Source: Haladaptatus sp. R4 (lineage in GTDB: Archaea > Halobacteriota > Halobacteria > Halobacteriales > Haladaptataceae). From it: DNA of 64,000 nt. The stretch is taken from NCBI RefSeq assembly GCF_001625445.1, contig NZ_LWHG01000030.1:1-64000 (forward strand), read 5' to 3'. Below the pieces are notes generated by a model. That model saw only the letters and a list, made by a program, of their open reading frames with translations, was not told where the DNA came from and made no database searches. The position numbers were made by a program, and so were the translations under genes. Position 1 is the stretch's first letter; the number at the start of each line of letters is the position of its first letter. Shown here piece by piece: positions 10,945 through 22,927 of this stretch.

Positions 10945-11274
10945 TCATCGAAGATACGTCTCCAGTGAATCCACGACGTGATCGACAAAGTCCTTCGTAA
11001 CTCGACCCTGCCACGCCACCAGATCTTCGATACGAGGGGAGTGGACTGCCCATGGAGAGACGAACGATTCGTACGGTACACCACCTGTTTTCCAGACAGC
11101 TGGCTCTAAGGGAATCGAATCACCGTACTCTTTCGTCGAGAGAGCGACAGCCACGTACTGCTCGTCACCGAACGGATGCGATTCGTTGTTGACGATGAGC
11201 CACGGTCGTTGGCTATCTTCGCCCAGTTTGAACGGGTCTGAACTTCGAACCACATCGCCACGTTCCGGTTGCAT
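10945..11274 (-). CDS. MazF/PemK-like toxin protein
   Basis: A 109-residue protein of the PemK/MazF (CcdB-like barrel) superfamily. It has the family opening RGDVVRSSDPFKLGEDSQRP (GD..., then a proline-bounded strand), WLIVNNESHPFGDEQYVAVA, and the late LVAWQGRVTKDFVDHVVDSL. MazF toxins are sequence-specific endoribonucleases. The ATG begins exactly where the upstream wHTH gene (11275-11637) ends, so the two form a translationally coupled pair in antitoxin-then-toxin order. Instead of a MazE-type antitoxin the partner is a winged helix, an arrangement I associate with haloarchaea. Catalytic Arg/Thr residues cannot be assigned with certainty. Confidence 0.75.
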   Translation of the reverse strand: MQPERGDVVRSSDPFKLGEDSQRPWLIVNNESHPFGDEQYVAVALSTKEYGDSIPLEPAVWKTGGVPYESFVSPWAVHSPRIEDLVAWQGRVTKDFVDHVVDSLETYLR

Positions 11275-11637
11275 CTATTCGTCTCGCTCACTTGGGTGCG
11301 GTTCGTCCGGAGCGACTGCGTCCCACTCTTCAGGTTCGATTGCTCCTTCGTCTTGATTGAGCCGTTCCGTGATCGTGTGGAGAGCGTACGCGTCTGCAAC
11401 CCGATCAAGATCGTTCGTTATCGCCCAGTACTCTCCTCTGTGTCGGACGAGTTCACGCTGTTTCAACCGTGAGAGGGCTGTCCCAACTGTGTTCGGATCC
11501 GCATCGATACTGGTAGCGATTTCCGACCGGGAGAACGCTCTGTCCCGATTTGTATAGAGATAGCCAAGTATCTGTTCGGGCACGCTTGGGCCACTTGGGA
11601 GGTCCCCGGCTTCGAACTCCTCGATACGAACGGGCAT
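11275..11637 (-). CDS. winged-helix protein, putative antitoxin of the MazF pair
   Basis: A 120-residue protein. Residues 18-75 form a winged helix: SVPEQILGYLYTNRDRAFSR, then SEIATSIDADPNTVGTALSR as the HTH, then LVRHRGEYWAITNDLDRVA as the wing. A long acidic helical tail (RLNQDEGAIEPEEWDAVAPD) follows, which could mask the basic toxin. It directly abuts the MazF-like gene. The N-terminal PVRIEEFEAGDLPSGPSVPE is a conserved-looking lead-in for such haloarchaeal pairs. It is probably both repressor of its own operon and toxin neutraliser (inference from organisation). Confidence 0.7.
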   Translation of the reverse strand: MPVRIEEFEAGDLPSGPSVPEQILGYLYTNRDRAFSRSEIATSIDADPNTVGTALSRLKQRELVRHRGEYWAITNDLDRVADAYALHTITERLNQDEGAIEPEEWDAVAPDEPHPSERDE

Positions 11638-13243: not shown

Positions 13244-13414
13244 ACGCTCTGCTCAGGGAAGGTGTGCTAATAGATTTTAGGAGCCAATCGGTATCATATA
13301 GCACGCTTTTTGATCAATCTCACTGAGTTGAATGTCCTCTCTTCGATAACCGTATCCACCCACGCACCACCAACCCACTAGCCCATCACTCCTTCACAAA
13401 CTCTCCTACCAAGC

Positions 13415-14534
13415 GGACAGTCAGCCAGCAGACACAGGGTGCCCACCCCAACGTGAACCACGCCGTCTTTCAAGTGAAAATCAATATCACAGACAACCAG
13501 CATCAGCCAGCTTGACAGTCCACTATTACCACACCACATTTCCGGAGTAAATCTGCTTCCCACTGCTGGTAGACGCTCTCTCCCTCCACAATCACTCTTG
13601 CCTTCACAGACTGTCCCACTAACTCACTCGCACTGACAGTCCGGTTGCTGATTCACAGAGGACAGTCCGGTGGCCTCAACTGGTCCACTTCAAACTCGTT
13701 GTAGCACGCTGGACAGTCCTCTGGTTATCGCCGGATACGGTCAACTCCCACTGGTACCGGGATGACAGTCCCACGGGCTGTTACACTCCCAACATCTATT
13801 CTGCTGGTCGGGAACGGACAGTCTAGAGTCCATTTGTCCCACTCCAGGCTGTCCTCACCTCTGGTGGACAGTCAGGCAGTACGTTCATTGTAACCCCGGT
13901 GTCTCTCTTATTGGCACCCAGATCTGCGTGAAGCCAGTGGGCATCCCAACCAATACATCCACTGGCATCCCATACCGTCGCTCATCGGATTTCTTTGTCT
14001 TGTCCGGATAGAGGGACTGTCAGAACTCGTTGCTCTTGATGACTGTCCTGTGCTGTCTCACAGCCTTTGTGTCTCGCACTTCGTCACTCGGTTTCTGGGA
14101 TGGACCGCTCCTCGAGGTCTTTCCGTCCTGGTAGCTGTCGTCCTCTCGTAACGCTGCACGTCCTTGCTGTCGATGCTGCCTAACTCCTCATCGTACTGCT
14201 CATCCCTTGTTTTCAGCTATCCTCTCGCTCCCTCTACACTGTCCGTCGCTGTCTCGCTCTCATTGACTGTCTACTGGTCTCGGTATGGCTGTCACTCCAC
14301 CTTCTGTTGTCAGCACCAGCTTCAGAAAGCTAAGTCGGCCTCGGTTTCAGTCTTCTTTTCGCACTGTGGACTGTCCCATCTCGCGGTATTCTGTGTTCTG
14401 TGGCTGCTGTTTCTACATGAGGGGACCGTCCCTCTGTACTCACACTCTCGCCTCTCTCATTATCTCGCCTTGGCGGACTGTCGTCCAATCGCTACACACC
14501 AGTCTACAGAAATCTCGCTTTCGGGGGACTGTCC
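13415..14534. repeat. array of ~17 GGAC-W-GTCC near-palindromes, ~26/52-bp phased
   Basis: Nine-mers equal or close to GGACAGTCC or its complement GGACTGTCC are centred at 13419, 13517, 13612, 13638, 13664, 13715, 13767, 13820, 13870, 14018, 14044, 14240, 14268, 14372, 14427, 14479 and 14530. Four are perfect with an A or T centre (13660, 13711, 14368, 14526); 14423 has C at the centre. Intervals are mostly 26-28 or 50-55 bp, with a few larger gaps. The central base is A in the left group (except 13612) and T in the right group. No protein family is visible. It could be a multisite binding region (operator, partition or origin-like) for a dimeric protein, possibly the winged-helix protein encoded at 15017. 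Confidence 0.7.
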
Positions 14535-14685
14535 ATACACCACTTTTCATCTGTTCTCCCTGCCTCATTCTGGCGCGGACTTCAATCTACTTCTCAAAAA
14601 TTTGATTGTCGTCATCTAAGTGGCTTTCGTAACTGTCGTCCCTGTCGCTTCTCCCCTATTGTGTCATAGTCTTTAGTACAGTTGT

Positions 14686-14750
14686 GGGTGCCCACTCAAT
14701 CAGTCTCACACAGTGGGGTGCCCGTCGTGCTACGTTTATCTTGGGTGCCC
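14686..14750. repeat. three GGGTGCCC sites at ~27-30 bp spacing
   Basis: The exact 8-mer GGGTGCCC occurs at 14686-14693 (inside GTGGGTGCCCAC), 14716-14723 and 14743-14750. An outlying copy is at 13437-13444, and related sites are at 13912 (GGCACCCA) and 13938 (TGGGCATCCCA). Spacing matches that of the GGAC-W-GTCC array, so this may be a second site type for the same or another protein. Confidence 0.55.
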
Positions 14751-15016
14751 ATGTCTCGTCGCTGAGTTCATTCTCAGTCTCTCTTCAGTTGGAGGTATGG
14801 TTGGTTGCTCCTCGGTTGTTTTCCAGTGTGTTTCTGCAAGGATGTTGCCGTCGGTTTTCGTTTTCTTCTTTCTTACACGTTGGTTCTCCCGGTAGTTGAT
14901 TTGTTTGCTGTTGTTTGGGGTGTGTTTCAGCTATATGTATCGGGAGGGGTGGATTATCCGCGTTTATGCTCCTAAACGCCAATAGAATTATTAGCGCTAT
15001 CTTCGTTTATGTTCGT

Positions 15017-15478
15017 ATGGGAACCTCAAAGACTAGAGAAGAAGATGAGATGATTCGGGGCCATCGTCGGACGTTGCTTGATGGTCTTCGCTATCACGGT
15101 GGGTCAGCCAACACCAGTGAGCTTCGTGCCTACGGGGATGTCCCACCGGGAAGTATCCGGCACCACCTCTCTGTATTAGAAGAGTGGGAGCTCATCGTGC
15201 AGGAGGGAACAGAGCGACTTGACAATGGTGAACTAGCCAATCAATATCACCTCACTGACGCTGGCTCAGCCGCTGCCGAGGAGATTGCAGAGAGTACGAC
15301 CACAGCTGAAACCGTTGAGAGTTTAGAACAGAAAGTGAACCAGCAACAAGAGCAACTGGAAACGCTTCACGACGAAGTGAAGTCGCTTCGGGAAGAAGTG
15401 GATGAACTCAATGAGCTTCGAGTAGAGTTCAACCGGATGGCCGAGATCGTCGAGGATTTCGCGAGACAGAAACAATAG
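15017..15478 (+). CDS. winged-helix protein with C-terminal coiled coil
   Basis: A 153-residue protein from ATG 15017. Residues 12-75 are a winged helix: MIRGHRRTLLDGLRYHGGSA, SELRAYGDVPPGSIRHHLSV as the HTH, and WELIVQEGTERL...YHLTDAG as the wing. Residues 95-150 are a heptad-rich coiled coil (SLEQKVNQQQEQLETLHDEV, SLREEVDELNEL), so the protein should dimerise or oligomerise. Such PadR/TrmB-like proteins occur on haloarchaeal plasmids and integrated elements. It is transcribed out of the long motif array. That makes the array its natural DNA target, for repression, spreading or partition (inference). The earlier in-frame start at 14915 reads into non-coding-like sequence. Confidence 0.8.
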   Translation: MGTSKTREEDEMIRGHRRTLLDGLRYHGGSANTSELRAYGDVPPGSIRHHLSVLEEWELIVQEGTERLDNGELANQYHLTDAGSAAAEEIAESTTTAETVESLEQKVNQQQEQLETLHDEVKSLREEVDELNELRVEFNRMAEIVEDFARQKQ

Positions 15479-18211: not shown

Positions 18212-19948
18212 TTGCATGGTATGGTGTTTCAAACTATGAAGGAGAGAGAGAATAGTGAAGTCCAGAATACAGACACAAATCAGCATAAGAGATCGAACCG
18301 GTTCAAATCACTCGACGAAAAACCGGTAAACCAAGACGGGTTTGCCAAAGAGTGGCCAGAAGAGGGACTAATCGCAATGGACAGTCCCAACGATCCAGAT
18401 CCGAGTGTGGCTGTTGAAGAGGGCGAAATCGTCGAGATGGATGGAAAGCAGCGAGAAGAGTTCGATTTTATCGACTTCTTCATCGCCGACTATGCCATCA
18501 ACGTGGAGAAAGCCGAGGAAGCACTCGCTATCGATTCGGTTGAGTTTGCACAGCGGCTCGTTGATATCAACATCCCGCGTGAGGATATCATCGAGCTTAC
18601 GACTGCAATGACTCCAGCAAAACTGGCTGAAGTAGTGAACCAGATGAACACGCTGGAGATGATGATGGCATTGCAGAAAATGCGTGCTCGAAAAACGCCA
18701 GGCAACCAAGGCCATTGCACGAGTGTTAAAGATCATCCTGTACAAATCGCAGCTGACGCTGCCGAGGCGGCTCTCCGAGGATTCGACGAAATCGAAACTA
18801 CGGTCGGGGTAGCTCGATACGCACCGTTTAACGCACTCGCTCAACAACTCGGAAGCCAAGCTGGGCGCGGCGGAGTACTCACTCAGTGTGCTGTCGAGGA
18901 AGCGACCGAACTCGAACTCGGGATGAAAGGCCTGACGACGTACGCTGAAACCGTCTCAGTGTATGGGACGGAATCGGTTTTCAAGGACGGTGATGACACT
19001 CCATGGTCGAAAGCGTTTCTCGCCTCGGGGTATGCTTCTCGTGGGTTGAAGATGCGGTTTACCTCCGGTTCCGGTTCAGAAGTGAATATGGGACAAGCGG
19101 AGGGAAAATCGATGGTGTATCTGGAGTCACGCTGTGTTCTCGTGACCAAAGGATGTGGTGTCCAAGGACTGCAAAACGGTGGAATTAGTTGTATCGCAAT
19201 CCCATCCGCCGTGCCATCGGGGATTCGAGGTGTTCTTGCGGAGAACCTGATTACGACCATGGTCGACTTAGAGGTCGCATCAGGGAATGACCAGACGTTC
19301 TCCCATTCGCACAAACGCCAGATGGCACGGACGTTCCCACAATTAGTCGCCGGAACGGACCTCATCTTCTCCGGCTATAGCACCATGCCGAACTACGACG
19401 ATATGTTCGCGGGATCGAACTTCGACTCGTACGACTATGACGACTACAACGTTGTACAGCGCGACCTCAAGGTCGACGGGGGACTGAAACCGATTGCGGA
19501 GGAAGACGCGATTGCAGTACGGAATACTGCCGCACGCGCGATTCAAGTCGTATTCCGAGAATTGGGCTTCCCACAAATCACCGACGAAGAAGTCGAAGCC
19601 GCGACGTATGGAGATGGAAGCGACGATATGCCGGATCGAGACCAAGCCGCGGATTTGAAGGCCGCAGAAGAATTGATGGACGGAGATATCACTGGGCTGG
19701 ACATCGTGGAAATCCTCGCCAAACATGGTTTCGACGACTTGGCGGAGAACATGTTGAACATGCTCAAACAGCGAATTTCCGGGGATTACCTCCACACGTC
19801 TGCGGTCATCGATGGGGAATTCAACGTGACGAGCGGTGTGAACGACAGAAACGACTATCAGGGCCCTGGAACCGGCTATCGCATGAGCGAGGAGCGTTGG
19901 GAGGAAATCAAAGACATTCGGCATGCGTTCGATCCGAAAGAGATCTGA
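18212..19948 (+). CDS. pduC: B12-dependent diol/glycerol dehydratase large subunit
   Basis: A 578-residue alpha subunit (bacterial PduC/DhaB1 ~554). It dehydrates 1,2-diols or glycerol to aldehydes by adenosylcobalamin radical chemistry. The opening RFKSLDEKPVNQDGFAKEWP aligns with the PduC N-terminus, so the first ~30 acidic residues are an extension; ATG 18221 and 18236 are alternative starts. Hallmarks are TTAMTPAKLAEVVNQMNTLE, EMMMALQKMRARKTP, the barrel segments VGVARYAPFNALAQQLGSQ and RGGVLTQCAVEEATELELG, SVYGTESVFKDGDDTPWSKA, and SGYSTMPNYDDMFAGSNFD. It is first in a tight operon with the two other subunits and the reactivase. No shell or encapsulation genes flank it. Confidence 0.95.
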   Translation: MHGMVFQTMKERENSEVQNTDTNQHKRSNRFKSLDEKPVNQDGFAKEWPEEGLIAMDSPNDPDPSVAVEEGEIVEMDGKQREEFDFIDFFIADYAINVEKAEEALAIDSVEFAQRLVDINIPREDIIELTTAMTPAKLAEVVNQMNTLEMMMALQKMRARKTPGNQGHCTSVKDHPVQIAADAAEAALRGFDEIETTVGVARYAPFNALAQQLGSQAGRGGVLTQCAVEEATELELGMKGLTTYAETVSVYGTESVFKDGDDTPWSKAFLASGYASRGLKMRFTSGSGSEVNMGQAEGKSMVYLESRCVLVTKGCGVQGLQNGGISCIAIPSAVPSGIRGVLAENLITTMVDLEVASGNDQTFSHSHKRQMARTFPQLVAGTDLIFSGYSTMPNYDDMFAGSNFDSYDYDDYNVVQRDLKVDGGLKPIAEEDAIAVRNTAARAIQVVFRELGFPQITDEEVEAATYGDGSDDMPDRDQAADLKAAEELMDGDITGLDIVEILAKHGFDDLAENMLNMLKQRISGDYLHTSAVIDGEFNVTSGVNDRNDYQGPGTGYRMSEERWEEIKDIRHAFDPKEI

Positions 19949-19959
19949 CCACTGTGACA

Positions 19960-20535
19960 ATGAGTACTGAAACCAAAACCAGTCGACGGCAACTTCGACT
20001 CGAAGAGAACGGGAACGCCGAATCGGGAAGTGAAAGTGACGAGGTCGTAATCGCAATCAGTCCAGCCTTTGGCGAGTCACAAACCTCGACGATCGTGGAC
20101 ATTCCGCTTGCGGATGTGCTTCGTGAGACGATGGCCGGAATCGAAGAGGAAGGTCTCAATTCGCGACTCGTTCGGTTCATCGACACCGCAGATTTAGGTA
20201 ATCTCGGGAATCGGGGCGCAAAGTTGAGCGGGTCGGGGATCAGTGTCGGTATCCAGTCGAAGGGAACTGCCTTGATTCATCAAGCGGATTTGCTTCCGCT
20301 TAGCAATCTCGAACTGTTTCCGCAGGCACCGCTTTTAGATCGCGAGAAATTCAGAGCTATCGGAAAGAACGCAGCAAAGTACGCAAAAGGGGAGAATCCG
20401 TCCCCTGTCACGGTCGAGAACGATCCGATGGCCAGGCCGAAATACCAAGCACTCGCTGCGGTGCTCCACATCAAAGAGTCGAAATCGATCGACGAGACGC
20501 GAGAACCAGTCGAACTCGAAGCTCACTTCGAATAA
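19960..20535 (+). CDS. pduD: diol/glycerol dehydratase medium subunit
   Basis: A 191-residue beta subunit from ATG 19960, 11 bp after the large subunit. It shows the beta-subunit pattern: DEVVIAISPAFGESQTSTIV, IPLADVLRETMAGIEEEGLN, SRLVRFIDTADLGNLGNRGA, KLSGSGISVGIQSKGTALIH, and the late NDPMARPKYQALAAVLHIKE. In the bacterial enzyme this subunit binds the lower face of cobalamin. Its N-terminus is a charged, halophile-type extension rather than the bacterial microcompartment-targeting helix, in line with the lack of shell genes. Confidence 0.93.
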   Translation: MSTETKTSRRQLRLEENGNAESGSESDEVVIAISPAFGESQTSTIVDIPLADVLRETMAGIEEEGLNSRLVRFIDTADLGNLGNRGAKLSGSGISVGIQSKGTALIHQADLLPLSNLELFPQAPLLDREKFRAIGKNAAKYAKGENPSPVTVENDPMARPKYQALAAVLHIKESKSIDETREPVELEAHFE

Positions 20536-20550
20536 TTACCACAACGATCC

Positions 20551-20967
20551 ATGTCCGACAACAACACTACAGACGAACCAAGCGAGTACCCGCTCGGAAA
20601 GAATCCAGACCAAGTCGAAACACCGACCGGAAAAACGATGTCAGATGTGACGCTTGAGAGTTTGGCAGACGGCGATGTAGACGCAGCAGACATCCGCATT
20701 TCTGCAGAAACACTCGAAAAGCAGGCGACGGTCGCAGAATCTGCTGGTCGTTCGCAGATGAAACAAAACTTCCAACGAGCGGCCGAGTTGACCGAGATAC
20801 CGGACGAACGCATCTTAGAGATCTACAACGCACTTCGACCGAGTGGAGCCGAGAAAGAGACATTGTTGGAAATCGCTGACGAACTCGAGGACGAATATGA
20901 CGCACAGATCAACGCAGAACTCGTCCGTGAAGCGGCAGAAGTCTACGAAACGCGTGGACTGTACTAA
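20551..20967 (+). CDS. pduE: diol/glycerol dehydratase small subunit
   Basis: A 138-residue gamma subunit. The family core is clear: YPLGKNPDQVETPTGKTMSD, VTLESLADGDVDAADIRISA, ETLEKQATVAESAGRSQMKQ, NFQRAAELTEIPDERILEIY, NALRPSGAEKETLLEIADEL, ending in VREAAEVYETRGLY. The gene starts 15 bp after the medium subunit. Together the three subunits make the (alpha-beta-gamma)2 holoenzyme. Confidence 0.93.
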   Translation: MSDNNTTDEPSEYPLGKNPDQVETPTGKTMSDVTLESLADGDVDAADIRISAETLEKQATVAESAGRSQMKQNFQRAAELTEIPDERILEIYNALRPSGAEKETLLEIADELEDEYDAQINAELVREAAEVYETRGLY

Positions 20968-21031
20968 CGGCTCAACACGGTAGTGGTTACAGTCGTCCGT
21001 CCCCCTTTCGCTACAGAATACGATACTACAC

Positions 21032-22927
21032 ATGAACTACATCGCAGGAATCGACATCGGAAATTCCAGTACCGAGGTTGGAATTATTCGCCACGATCAG
21101 GAATCAAAGCGGTTCGTCGCGAGCAGTCTCTTTCGGACGACTGGTCTCAAAGGGACGACCGAAAACGTGCCAGGGATCGTACGAGCATTGGAACGTGGTG
21201 CCGAAAACGCCGGAATAGCGGTGGACGACCTTGATCTCCTCCTGTTGAATGAAGCAGCACCGGTGATCGGCGATGTTGCTATGGAGACGATTACCGAAAC
21301 GATCATCACCGAATCGACGATGATCGGCCACGATCCATCGACACCTGGCGGCATTGGAATCGGAACAGGAACCATTGTCGATATTACGGAGTCACAACGG
21401 GCTCATTCGAAAGACGAAGATATCATTTTCCGGGTCCCGAATGAGGTCGATTTCGCCGATGCGGCGGCCATCATCAACGAGTGGGTAGCGCAGGGATTCG
21501 ACATCCAAGGGGCAATCCTCCAGAAGGATGACGCCGTACTCGTTTCCAACCGCTGTGAGATCGAAATACCGATCGTAGACGAGGTAACCGAGATCGACGA
21601 AGTACCGCTCGGTCAACCCGCTGCCATCGAGGTCGCAGCATCCGGACAGACGATCGACACCCTCTCGAATCCGTATGGCATTGCGACCCTCTTCGAGTTA
21701 TCAGCGGAAGAAACACAGAAGATCATCCCGGTTGCACGGGCATTGGTCGGGAACAAATCCGGAGTCGTCATCAAGACACCGGAAGGGGATGTCGAAGAGC
21801 GGAGCATCCCAGCCGGGTCACTCACTGTAATCGGTGAGGATGGGTCAAAGAGTACCGTCGATACCGAGGATGGCGCACACGTGATTCGGGAAACGGTCCG
21901 TAACCGACGACCGCTCGAGGACGTTACCGGTGAATCCGGCACCAATATCGGAGGGATGCTTAACCGAGCCCGGACTGAAATGAGTGAAATCACAAATCAG
22001 GACCCCGACTCGATTCAGATCCGCGATATCCTCGCAGTGGATACGATCGTTCCTCAGGCCGTCAAAGGGGCAGTCGCTGGCGAATATCGGATGGAAAACG
22101 CTGTCGCGCTCGCCTCCATGGTCAAGACGAACCGACTACCGATGGAACAGATCGCGGGAGAACTAACAGAAGAGCTCGCCGTAGACGTCCACATCCAAGG
22201 AATAGAGGCATCGATGGCAGTGCTTGGATCACTAACGACGCCGGGAACGGACTTCCCGATCGCAATCCTCGATATCGGAGGTGGCTCCACGGATGCAGCA
22301 TACATGAACGAGCGCAAAGAGATCGAATCGATTCACCTCGCTGGGGCAGGCGACCTCGTCACGATGCTCATCGATTCTGAACTCGGATTGGAGGATCGGA
22401 AAACTGCTGAAGAGATTAAAAAGCATCCAGCTGCGAAAGTGGAGACACTCTTCAGTATCAGGCATGAGGACGGCACTGTCGATTTCCTGGAAACTGCTGT
22501 CGACCCCGAACTCTTTGGAAAAGTAGTTCTATTACAGGATGACGACGGAATGGAACCGATCGATACGGACCATTCGCTAGAAGAGATTCGGGCGACACGT
22601 AGAGAAGCGAAAGAAAAAGTGTTCGTGACGAACAGTAAACGGGCGCTTCGTCAAATAACGCCGTCATTAAATATCCGCCATTTACCGTTCGTCGTGATGG
22701 TTGGCCGGTCAGCGCTCGATTTCGAGATTCCCGAGATGATCTCGAATACCTTAGCGGAATACGGAATCGTTTGTGGCAGTGGTAATATCCGTAAAGAACA
22801 GGGCCCGAGAAATGCCGTCGCCACTGGACTTGTGCTGTCGCATATCGATGGCAATTCGTTCCTCGATTTCGAACTCCCGGATGAGCTTTCGACATCGATT
22901 ACCGAAACGGTGGCGACTGATGAGTAA
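21032..22927 (+). CDS. ddrA: diol dehydratase reactivase, large ATPase subunit
   Basis: A 631-residue protein (bacterial DdrA/PduG ~610). It swaps damaged cobalamin for fresh cofactor using ATP and a molecular-chaperone-like fold. Actin-like nucleotide motifs are visible: phosphate-1 AGIDIGNSSTEVGI at the N-terminus and phosphate-2 AILDIGGGSTDAAY near residue 415. Other family blocks are GIGTGTIVDI, GVVIKTPEGDVEERSIPAGS, EMSEITNQDPDSIQIRDILA, and a final VCGSGNIRKEQGPRNAVATG. It lies 64 bp after the small subunit and overlaps the next gene by eight bases. Confidence 0.93.
   Translation: MNYIAGIDIGNSSTEVGIIRHDQESKRFVASSLFRTTGLKGTTENVPGIVRALERGAENAGIAVDDLDLLLLNEAAPVIGDVAMETITETIITESTMIGHDPSTPGGIGIGTGTIVDITESQRAHSKDEDIIFRVPNEVDFADAAAIINEWVAQGFDIQGAILQKDDAVLVSNRCEIEIPIVDEVTEIDEVPLGQPAAIEVAASGQTIDTLSNPYGIATLFELSAEETQKIIPVARALVGNKSGVVIKTPEGDVEERSIPAGSLTVIGEDGSKSTVDTEDGAHVIRETVRNRRPLEDVTGESGTNIGGMLNRARTEMSEITNQDPDSIQIRDILAVDTIVPQAVKGAVAGEYRMENAVALASMVKTNRLPMEQIAGELTEELAVDVHIQGIEASMAVLGSLTTPGTDFPIAILDIGGGSTDAAYMNERKEIESIHLAGAGDLVTMLIDSELGLEDRKTAEEIKKHPAAKVETLFSIRHEDGTVDFLETAVDPELFGKVVLLQDDDGMEPIDTDHSLEEIRATRREAKEKVFVTNSKRALRQITPSLNIRHLPFVVMVGRSALDFEIPEMISNTLAEYGIVCGSGNIRKEQGPRNAVATGLVLSHIDGNSFLDFELPDELSTSITETVATDE

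Follow-up and report, generated by a model that had tools for sequence, protein, structure and literature searches.

A conserved polar array of near-palindromic sites linked to a haloarchaeal conjugation module, a candidate transfer-origin-like region

Organisation of the locus

The DNA considered here (the window) is a stretch of 64,000 nucleotides from Haladaptatus sp. R4 (contig NZ_LWHG01000030.1, positions 1 to 64,000). It includes a non-coding region (13245-15016), from which an acidic ORF, as expected of haloarchaeal genes, is absent and in which a stretch of ~1.3 kb bears repeats of two short motifs, termed A and B. The left part of this array is A-rich and the right part T-rich, and the array is followed by a gene encoding a wHTH protein and by the remains of a VirD4/TrwB-like gene. 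The features are as follows.

13415..13874 (+): distal A block of GGACAGTCC-type sites at 13415, 13513, 13634, 13660, 13711, 13763, 13816 and 13866, with a T-centred exception at 13608
13913..13971 (+): B block, with GGCACCC at 13913 and degenerate GGCATCCC at 13940 and 13964
14014..14534 (-): proximal A block of GGACTGTCC-type sites, the reverse complement of the distal motif, at 14014, 14040, 14264, 14368, 14423 (C-centred), 14475 and 14526
14686..14749 (-): proximal B block of GGGTGCC, the reverse complement of GGCACCC, at 14686, 14716 and 14743
14979..14997 (+): imperfect dyad, rich in AT, around CCAATAGAATTATTAGC and immediately before the start of the wHTH gene, as read from the sequence
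15017..15478 (+): wHTH and coiled-coil protein of 153 aa with a MarR/PadR-like winged helix
15602..16192 (-): decayed VirD4/TrwB-like C-terminal fragment with frameshifts and an internal deletion

An additional GGGTGCC copy lies inside the distal block, at 13437. Blocks homologous to the distal A block are found in loci L001, L035, L096 and others, and the degenerate GGCATCCC at 13940 and 13964 corresponds to GGCACCCC in the homologue L096. The AT-rich dyad, comparable to dyads in L001, L035 and L107, is a possible autoregulatory operator of the wHTH gene.

Two neighbouring regions of the window may be mentioned in passing. At 10945-11637, a small HTH gene precedes a PemK/MazF-like gene (no Pfam match) in an arrangement equal to that of the annotated HTH and PemK/MazF pair in L115, and the two genes probably form a toxin-antitoxin pair. 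At 18212-22927, a few kb from the conjugation remnant, lie diol/glycerol dehydratase-like genes (pduC-like, with an apparent reactivase), which to our knowledge are unusual in haloarchaea.

Number and enrichment of the sites

A direct count gives 16 sites with a GAC-N-GTC core within 13415-14534, of which 15 are at most one mismatch from GGACNGTCC, the remaining one being TGACTGTCT at 14264. The array of ~17 sites described in the original prediction is thus confirmed as an array, its exact number varying with the cut-off. Likewise, where 12 of 16 intervals had been given as 26-28 or 50-55 bp, 10 of 15 are found at 26 or 50-55 bp. The enrichment does not depend on choosing the motif beforehand, as GACAGTC ranks first in an unbiased 7-mer scan over 20 kb (15 copies vs 0.16 expected), and the same core is the strongest local repeat in motif-free 7-mer scans of the window, L001 and L035. 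Allowing one mismatch, 14 GGACAGTCC/GGACTGTCC sites (GGACWGTCC) occur in 13245-15016, compared with 0.55 +/- 0.71 expected and a maximum of 4 in 2000 dinucleotide shuffles. Across the whole window, GGACNGTCC with one mismatch is observed 40 times against 36 expected, a count that conceals the local enrichment because the rest of the window is pooled in. Genome-wide, 3732 occurrences of the one-mismatch pattern in 4.9 Mb amount to 0.76 per kb, and the array, at ~13 per kb, is far denser.

A CRISPR array was considered and rejected, since the sites are 9 bp long, degenerate and present in both orientations, and are not identical repeats of ~30 bp with regular unique spacers; no cas-like genes were recognised among the ORFs neighbouring the array.

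Polarity, second motif and spacing

The sites on the left are GGACAGTCC and those on the right GGACTGTCC, with a strict switch between the blocks to which 13608 is the sole exception. The central base is consequently sorted, being A in the distal block and T in the proximal one, and because the site is otherwise palindromic and this base is conserved, each block has a direction. The symmetric dimer proposed earlier as the binding unit is only partly borne out, given this conserved polarity base. The second motif, GGCACCC/GGGTGCC, also occupies fixed places and is sorted by orientation, so that the order toward the wHTH gene in nearly all of 18 tabulated loci is GGACAGTCC, GGCACCC, GGACTGTCC, GGGTGCC. 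This grammar can be written A>, B>, <A, <B, with totals over the 18 loci of 97 A>, 88 <A, 55 B> and 43 <B. The flanks outside the nine motif positions carry little information.

Pooled over relatives, the spacings fall at 25-30, 48-58, 74-79, 92-107 and 121-131 bp, which corresponds to a lattice of ~25.5 bp; the vector strength at ~25 bp is 0.72. Phasing with the helix, at ~10.4 bp, was weak in these pooled spacings (vector strength 0.11). As 25.5 bp is ~2.4 turns of the helix (26 bp ~2.5), neighbouring sites would lie on alternate faces, and the suggestion that many sites share one face holds for the ~52-bp steps, near five turns, but not for the array as a whole.

The opposed motifs could also act in a transcript, as a long structured RNA or other transcript-level element in which left and right motifs pair, GGACAGTCC with GGACTGTCC and GGCACCC with GGGTGCC, both perfectly. 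We regard this as highly improbable: an Rfam search of the array region gave zero matches, each site is near-palindromic in the manner of protein sites, copy numbers and spacings vary, and with the order A, B, A', B' the two pairings would cross.

Further copies and conservation

The same genome holds three more arrays, namely L001 (contig C33, 17 sites), L002 (C33; chiefly the distal half, with 79% identity to the array of the window) and L003 (C7). Arrays also occur in two other genomes of the genus and in other families, and many Haladaptatus, Haloterrigena and Natrinema plasmids carry them. The pattern search across genomes returned many single scattered matches, several of them resembling coding repeats, and only dense clusters were counted as arrays. 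Several partial arrays are seen in L091-L093 (G181; NC_013744-NC_013746, Haloterrigena turkmenica), a genome with one fragment of this VirD4 family and one weak match. In three other relatives (L044, L107 and L114), a related but different motif, GGACCCC, builds an analogous array, with TGGACCCCC and, near the gene, inverted GGGGGTCC.

The standalone homologue L096 (G326:C4, 9032-10345) holds a full 17-site array. Between it and the window, motif columns picked on the window sequence only are 96.5% identical (164/170), compared with 77.7% of the other 1433 aligned columns (binomial p ~5e-12), and the motif columns are under purifying selection. No VirD4 or wHTH gene was found within 10 kb of the L096 array, VirD4 being on another contig of that genome; the array may possibly be a site mobilisable in trans or a relic. 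Together with the fixed grammar in nearly all 18 loci, the conservation of the motif columns gives good support to the original prediction of a specific multi-site protein-DNA assembly. That prediction took absence of the array from relatives keeping the neighbouring gene as a point against it, and such relatives exist in part: L042, L043 and L046-L050 have a gene of the 15017 type and lack the array, none being detectable in L043 and L046-L050 although both VirD4 and wHTH genes are present. In the literature searched, the coverage of which is incomplete, the array is not described.

Association with a conjugation module

Where the locus is complete, the array precedes a gene for a wHTH and coiled-coil protein (140-190 aa). 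This gene faces a VirD4/TrwB-like gene in convergent orientation, after which come p350 and a VirB4-like ATPase. Of the 18 tabulated arrays, most are directly upstream of the wHTH gene, with VirD4-p350-VirB4 either convergent to that gene or at a distance of a few kb. VirD4 matches TrwB_AAD_bind (1.3e-7, above the family cut-off), and the partner ATPase matches the VirB4/TraC families. Linkage to coupling protein and VirB4 genes, as expected of an oriT-type region, is thus present. Contigs C33 and C7 of this genome encode intact homologues of the window VirD4 fragment, and the named relatives closest to a VirD4 of this genome are on Haladaptatus plasmids (90-92%). Among phage records, the only VirD4 match was a distant one, in two records of Bacillus phage G.

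In VirD4 loci that have no wHTH gene (Natrialbaceae, Halorussus and Halobacterium plasmids L103-L106, L108 and L109), the array is absent too, although their p350 is still 47-59% identical, and L100 and L101 retain the array with very different VirB4 and p350 (26-29%). The array belongs to the VirB4-p350-VirD4 conjugation module, which in the window survives as a remnant, its VirD4 being a pseudogene. The intact operon is likewise missing from the L037, L096 and L002 copies, and arrays without intact VirD4 nearby extend to the Haloterrigena turkmenica replicons; both decay and mobilisation in trans are compatible with these arrays. No relaxase is annotated near the modules, and none was found among the unannotated large proteins scanned, a subset of the ORFs. 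No relaxase has been recognised on archaeal conjugative plasmids in general, the transfer mechanism of which is not worked out (PMC12857230; PMC9905601).

The wHTH gene and regulation

The wHTH protein resembles MarR/PadR regulators, and its gene is exchanged between otherwise similar elements. Among L035, L039 and L041, VirD4 is 90-94% and array DNA 86-88% identical, while the wHTH proteins are 29-56% identical. L035 and L039 share 92% in VirD4 and 32% in wHTH, L001 and L090 share 89% and 31%, and in L090 and L097 the relation is reversed (45% and 78%). Comparison of L035 with L039 and L041 shows that the exchange extends over the wHTH gene with its promoter and over the final ~50 codons of VirD4, in elements otherwise 93-96% identical. 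The cassette of wHTH and VirD4 tail has the look of one for immunity, exclusion or specificity.

Across these exchanges, the recognition helices of the wHTH relatives differ and the array motif is unchanged, which weakens the earlier proposal that the protein encoded at 15017 binds the array. Since wHTH is swapped while the array stays constant, it is probably not the sole reader, and wHTH as sole reader was dropped as the leading idea.

The array lies next to the wHTH promoter, and a regulatory role is possible. It would then be a co-operative region, a long operator array controlling the wHTH gene and thereby the conjugation operon, in keeping with its place upstream of the wHTH gene in complete loci and with MarR/PadR-type proteins typically being regulators. 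Yet the array begins ~160-390 bp upstream and covers at least ~1 kb, its motif stays constant as the recognition helix changes, and distinct AT-rich dyads are present at the wHTH promoters of L001, L035 and L107. In addition, VirD4 is convergent and transcribed from a promoter at the opposite end, and standalone arrays occur, all of which makes a regulatory region an unlikely explanation. In L107 (14103-14263), three 33-nt AT-rich repeats lie directly upstream of the wHTH gene, apart from the array, and are likely the gene's own operator.

A VirD4 segment as candidate reader

VirD4 residues ~530-604 show the H-S-H-H-S-S order of a winged helix. They score best within a model that is poor overall (mean pLDDT 44, local 64-83). 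Profile and fold searches with this segment or its model returned nothing significant. The helix motif of this segment, WRxV, is found in 16/16 array loci vs 1/12 non-array loci, a contrast that overstates independence because the loci are related; on the VirD4 tree, helix and array co-occur with about three separate losses of both. In seven further loci, 6/7 agree with the rule. The one that breaks it, L118, combines an A/B array, in which the A sites are reduced, with a VirD4 without the helix and no VirB4 upstream in the operon; judged from sequence, it looks like a recent hybrid, with an L035-type array and wHTH next to a distant VirD4. Conversely, L047 and L049 keep most of the helix and lack the array. 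A strict tie of the motif to VirD4 subtype was rejected, as the A/B motif spans deep VirD4 splits. Given the model and the co-occurrence, the winged-helix-like segment can be put forward as one candidate reader, a hypothesis with support and with one clear exception.

Partition and replication genes on complete plasmids

The original prediction named a partition centromere or an origin among the possible functions, and two complete plasmids speak against both. On NZ_CP111039 (80-kb circle), ParA and Orc1/Cdc6 occupy 0.1-2.6 kb, and the array is found at ~52.5-54 kb. On NZ_CP071310 (42-kb circle), the array, at 8.3-9.8 kb, is apart from ParA and separate CTATAG repeats, at 19.6-22 kb. A triple repeat based on CTATAG adjoins ParA in five copies on the latter plasmid (L089, 20464-21959); these are candidate partition or origin repeats.

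For a centromere-like partition or stability site, the array would be bound by an AspA-like or KfrA-like spreading wHTH. There is precedent in pNOB8, where the dimeric winged-helix protein AspA binds to a 23-bp palindrome preceding its own gene, and spreads (PMC5120986), and the wHTH protein here also combines a winged helix with a long C-terminal helix; moreover, ParA heads the conjugation gene cluster in NZ_CP071310. Nevertheless, ParA and its partner gene are elsewhere on complete plasmids, once with their own repeats, the array follows the VirD4/wHTH module and not parA, and the wHTH specificity shifts while the sites stay constant. A partition site is, accordingly, quite unlikely in our estimation.

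Multi-copy repeats in non-coding DNA, A-rich on the left and T-rich on the right, could similarly mark a plasmid replication origin. However, the array is not beside an orc1/cdc6 or rep gene on NZ_CP111039, the distance to Orc1/Cdc6 around the circle being at least ~30 kb. GC skew in NZ_CP071310 has no turning point at the array, and single megaplasmids hold several array-like places. An origin of replication is a very remote prospect.

Proposed function

The interpretation we favour is that the array is a transfer-origin-like (oriT/clt-like) multi-site cis recognition region of a haloarchaeal conjugation module consisting of wHTH, VirD4, p350 and VirB4, for which the chances seem about even. 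The array would then be a candidate for the start signal on the DNA that is still missing from the picture of archaeal conjugation. The motifs, their grammar and conservation, the linkage to the module, the swapping of wHTH and the separate replication and partition loci of two plasmids are direct results, whereas the link to DNA transfer, the identity of the reader and the use of the window remnant in trans are inferred.

In this mechanism, protein units would occupy the ~25.5-bp lattice of polar sites, formed by a pair of opposed A blocks and a pair of B blocks, and the occupied array would mark plasmid DNA as substrate of the VirD4/VirB4 pump. The swappable wHTH would most likely regulate the module or adapt the complex to VirD4, and the VirD4 segment ~530-604 may possibly read the array, by analogy with FtsK-like TraB at clt. 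Although the window module is decayed, the intact VirD4 systems encoded on C33 and C7 could perhaps use its array and wHTH remnant in trans. A bolder form of the proposal, a relaxase-free archaeal transfer origin in which the opposed polar two-motif arrays on the ~25.5-bp lattice are read directly by a VirD4 winged-helix domain that loads and orients the pump on the plasmid, is doubtful.

With a cis element of this kind, conserved, under selection, tied to the module and ordered by a definite grammar, the mechanism of archaeal transfer becomes testable. A role of these elements in specificity or exclusion is suggested by the repeated exchange of the wHTH cassette along with the end of VirD4.

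Comparison with known systems

The AspA-ParBA centromere of pNOB8 resembles the present locus in being on an archaeal conjugative plasmid and in combining a winged-helix protein with palindromic DNA upstream of its gene, but AspA binds and spreads from a single 23-bp palindrome in an operon with parBA, whereas here ~15 spaced sites are found and no parBA adjoins the wHTH gene (PMC5120986). Instead of forming an operon with parB and parA, the wHTH gene is convergent with virD4, and ParA is elsewhere. Furthermore, the wHTH changes independently of the sites, which argues against specific reading. In the sps/SpdA system of Streptomyces plasmids, short palindromes are likewise tied to a small DNA-binding protein gene on a conjugative element, yet motif and protein are different, and a long polar array is not among the features described in the available part of that source (PMC4170104).

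Compared with relaxase-type oriT regions, a relaxase gene and a nic site were not identified here. Accessory proteins at oriT are exemplified by TraM/TraD of F. PcfF plays the accessory part at the oriT of pCF10 (PMC6514445). With oriT regions having such accessory-protein sites, the array shares the character of a cis region beside transfer genes. The exchange of the VirD4 C-terminal tail together with the wHTH gene is as expected if both proteins touch.

Finally, clt of Streptomyces conjugation consists of non-coding TRS repeats read by the FtsK-like TraB (PMC4170104). The motor here is VirD4/TrwB-like with VirB4 and not an FtsK-like TraB, the repeats are 9-bp near-palindromes in opposed polar blocks with a second motif, and the reader is only a candidate. 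The array resembles clt/TRS in offering multi-copy short non-coding repeats that serve a DNA pump; if the parallel holds, recognition of the repeats would fall to the motor, with no relaxase needed.
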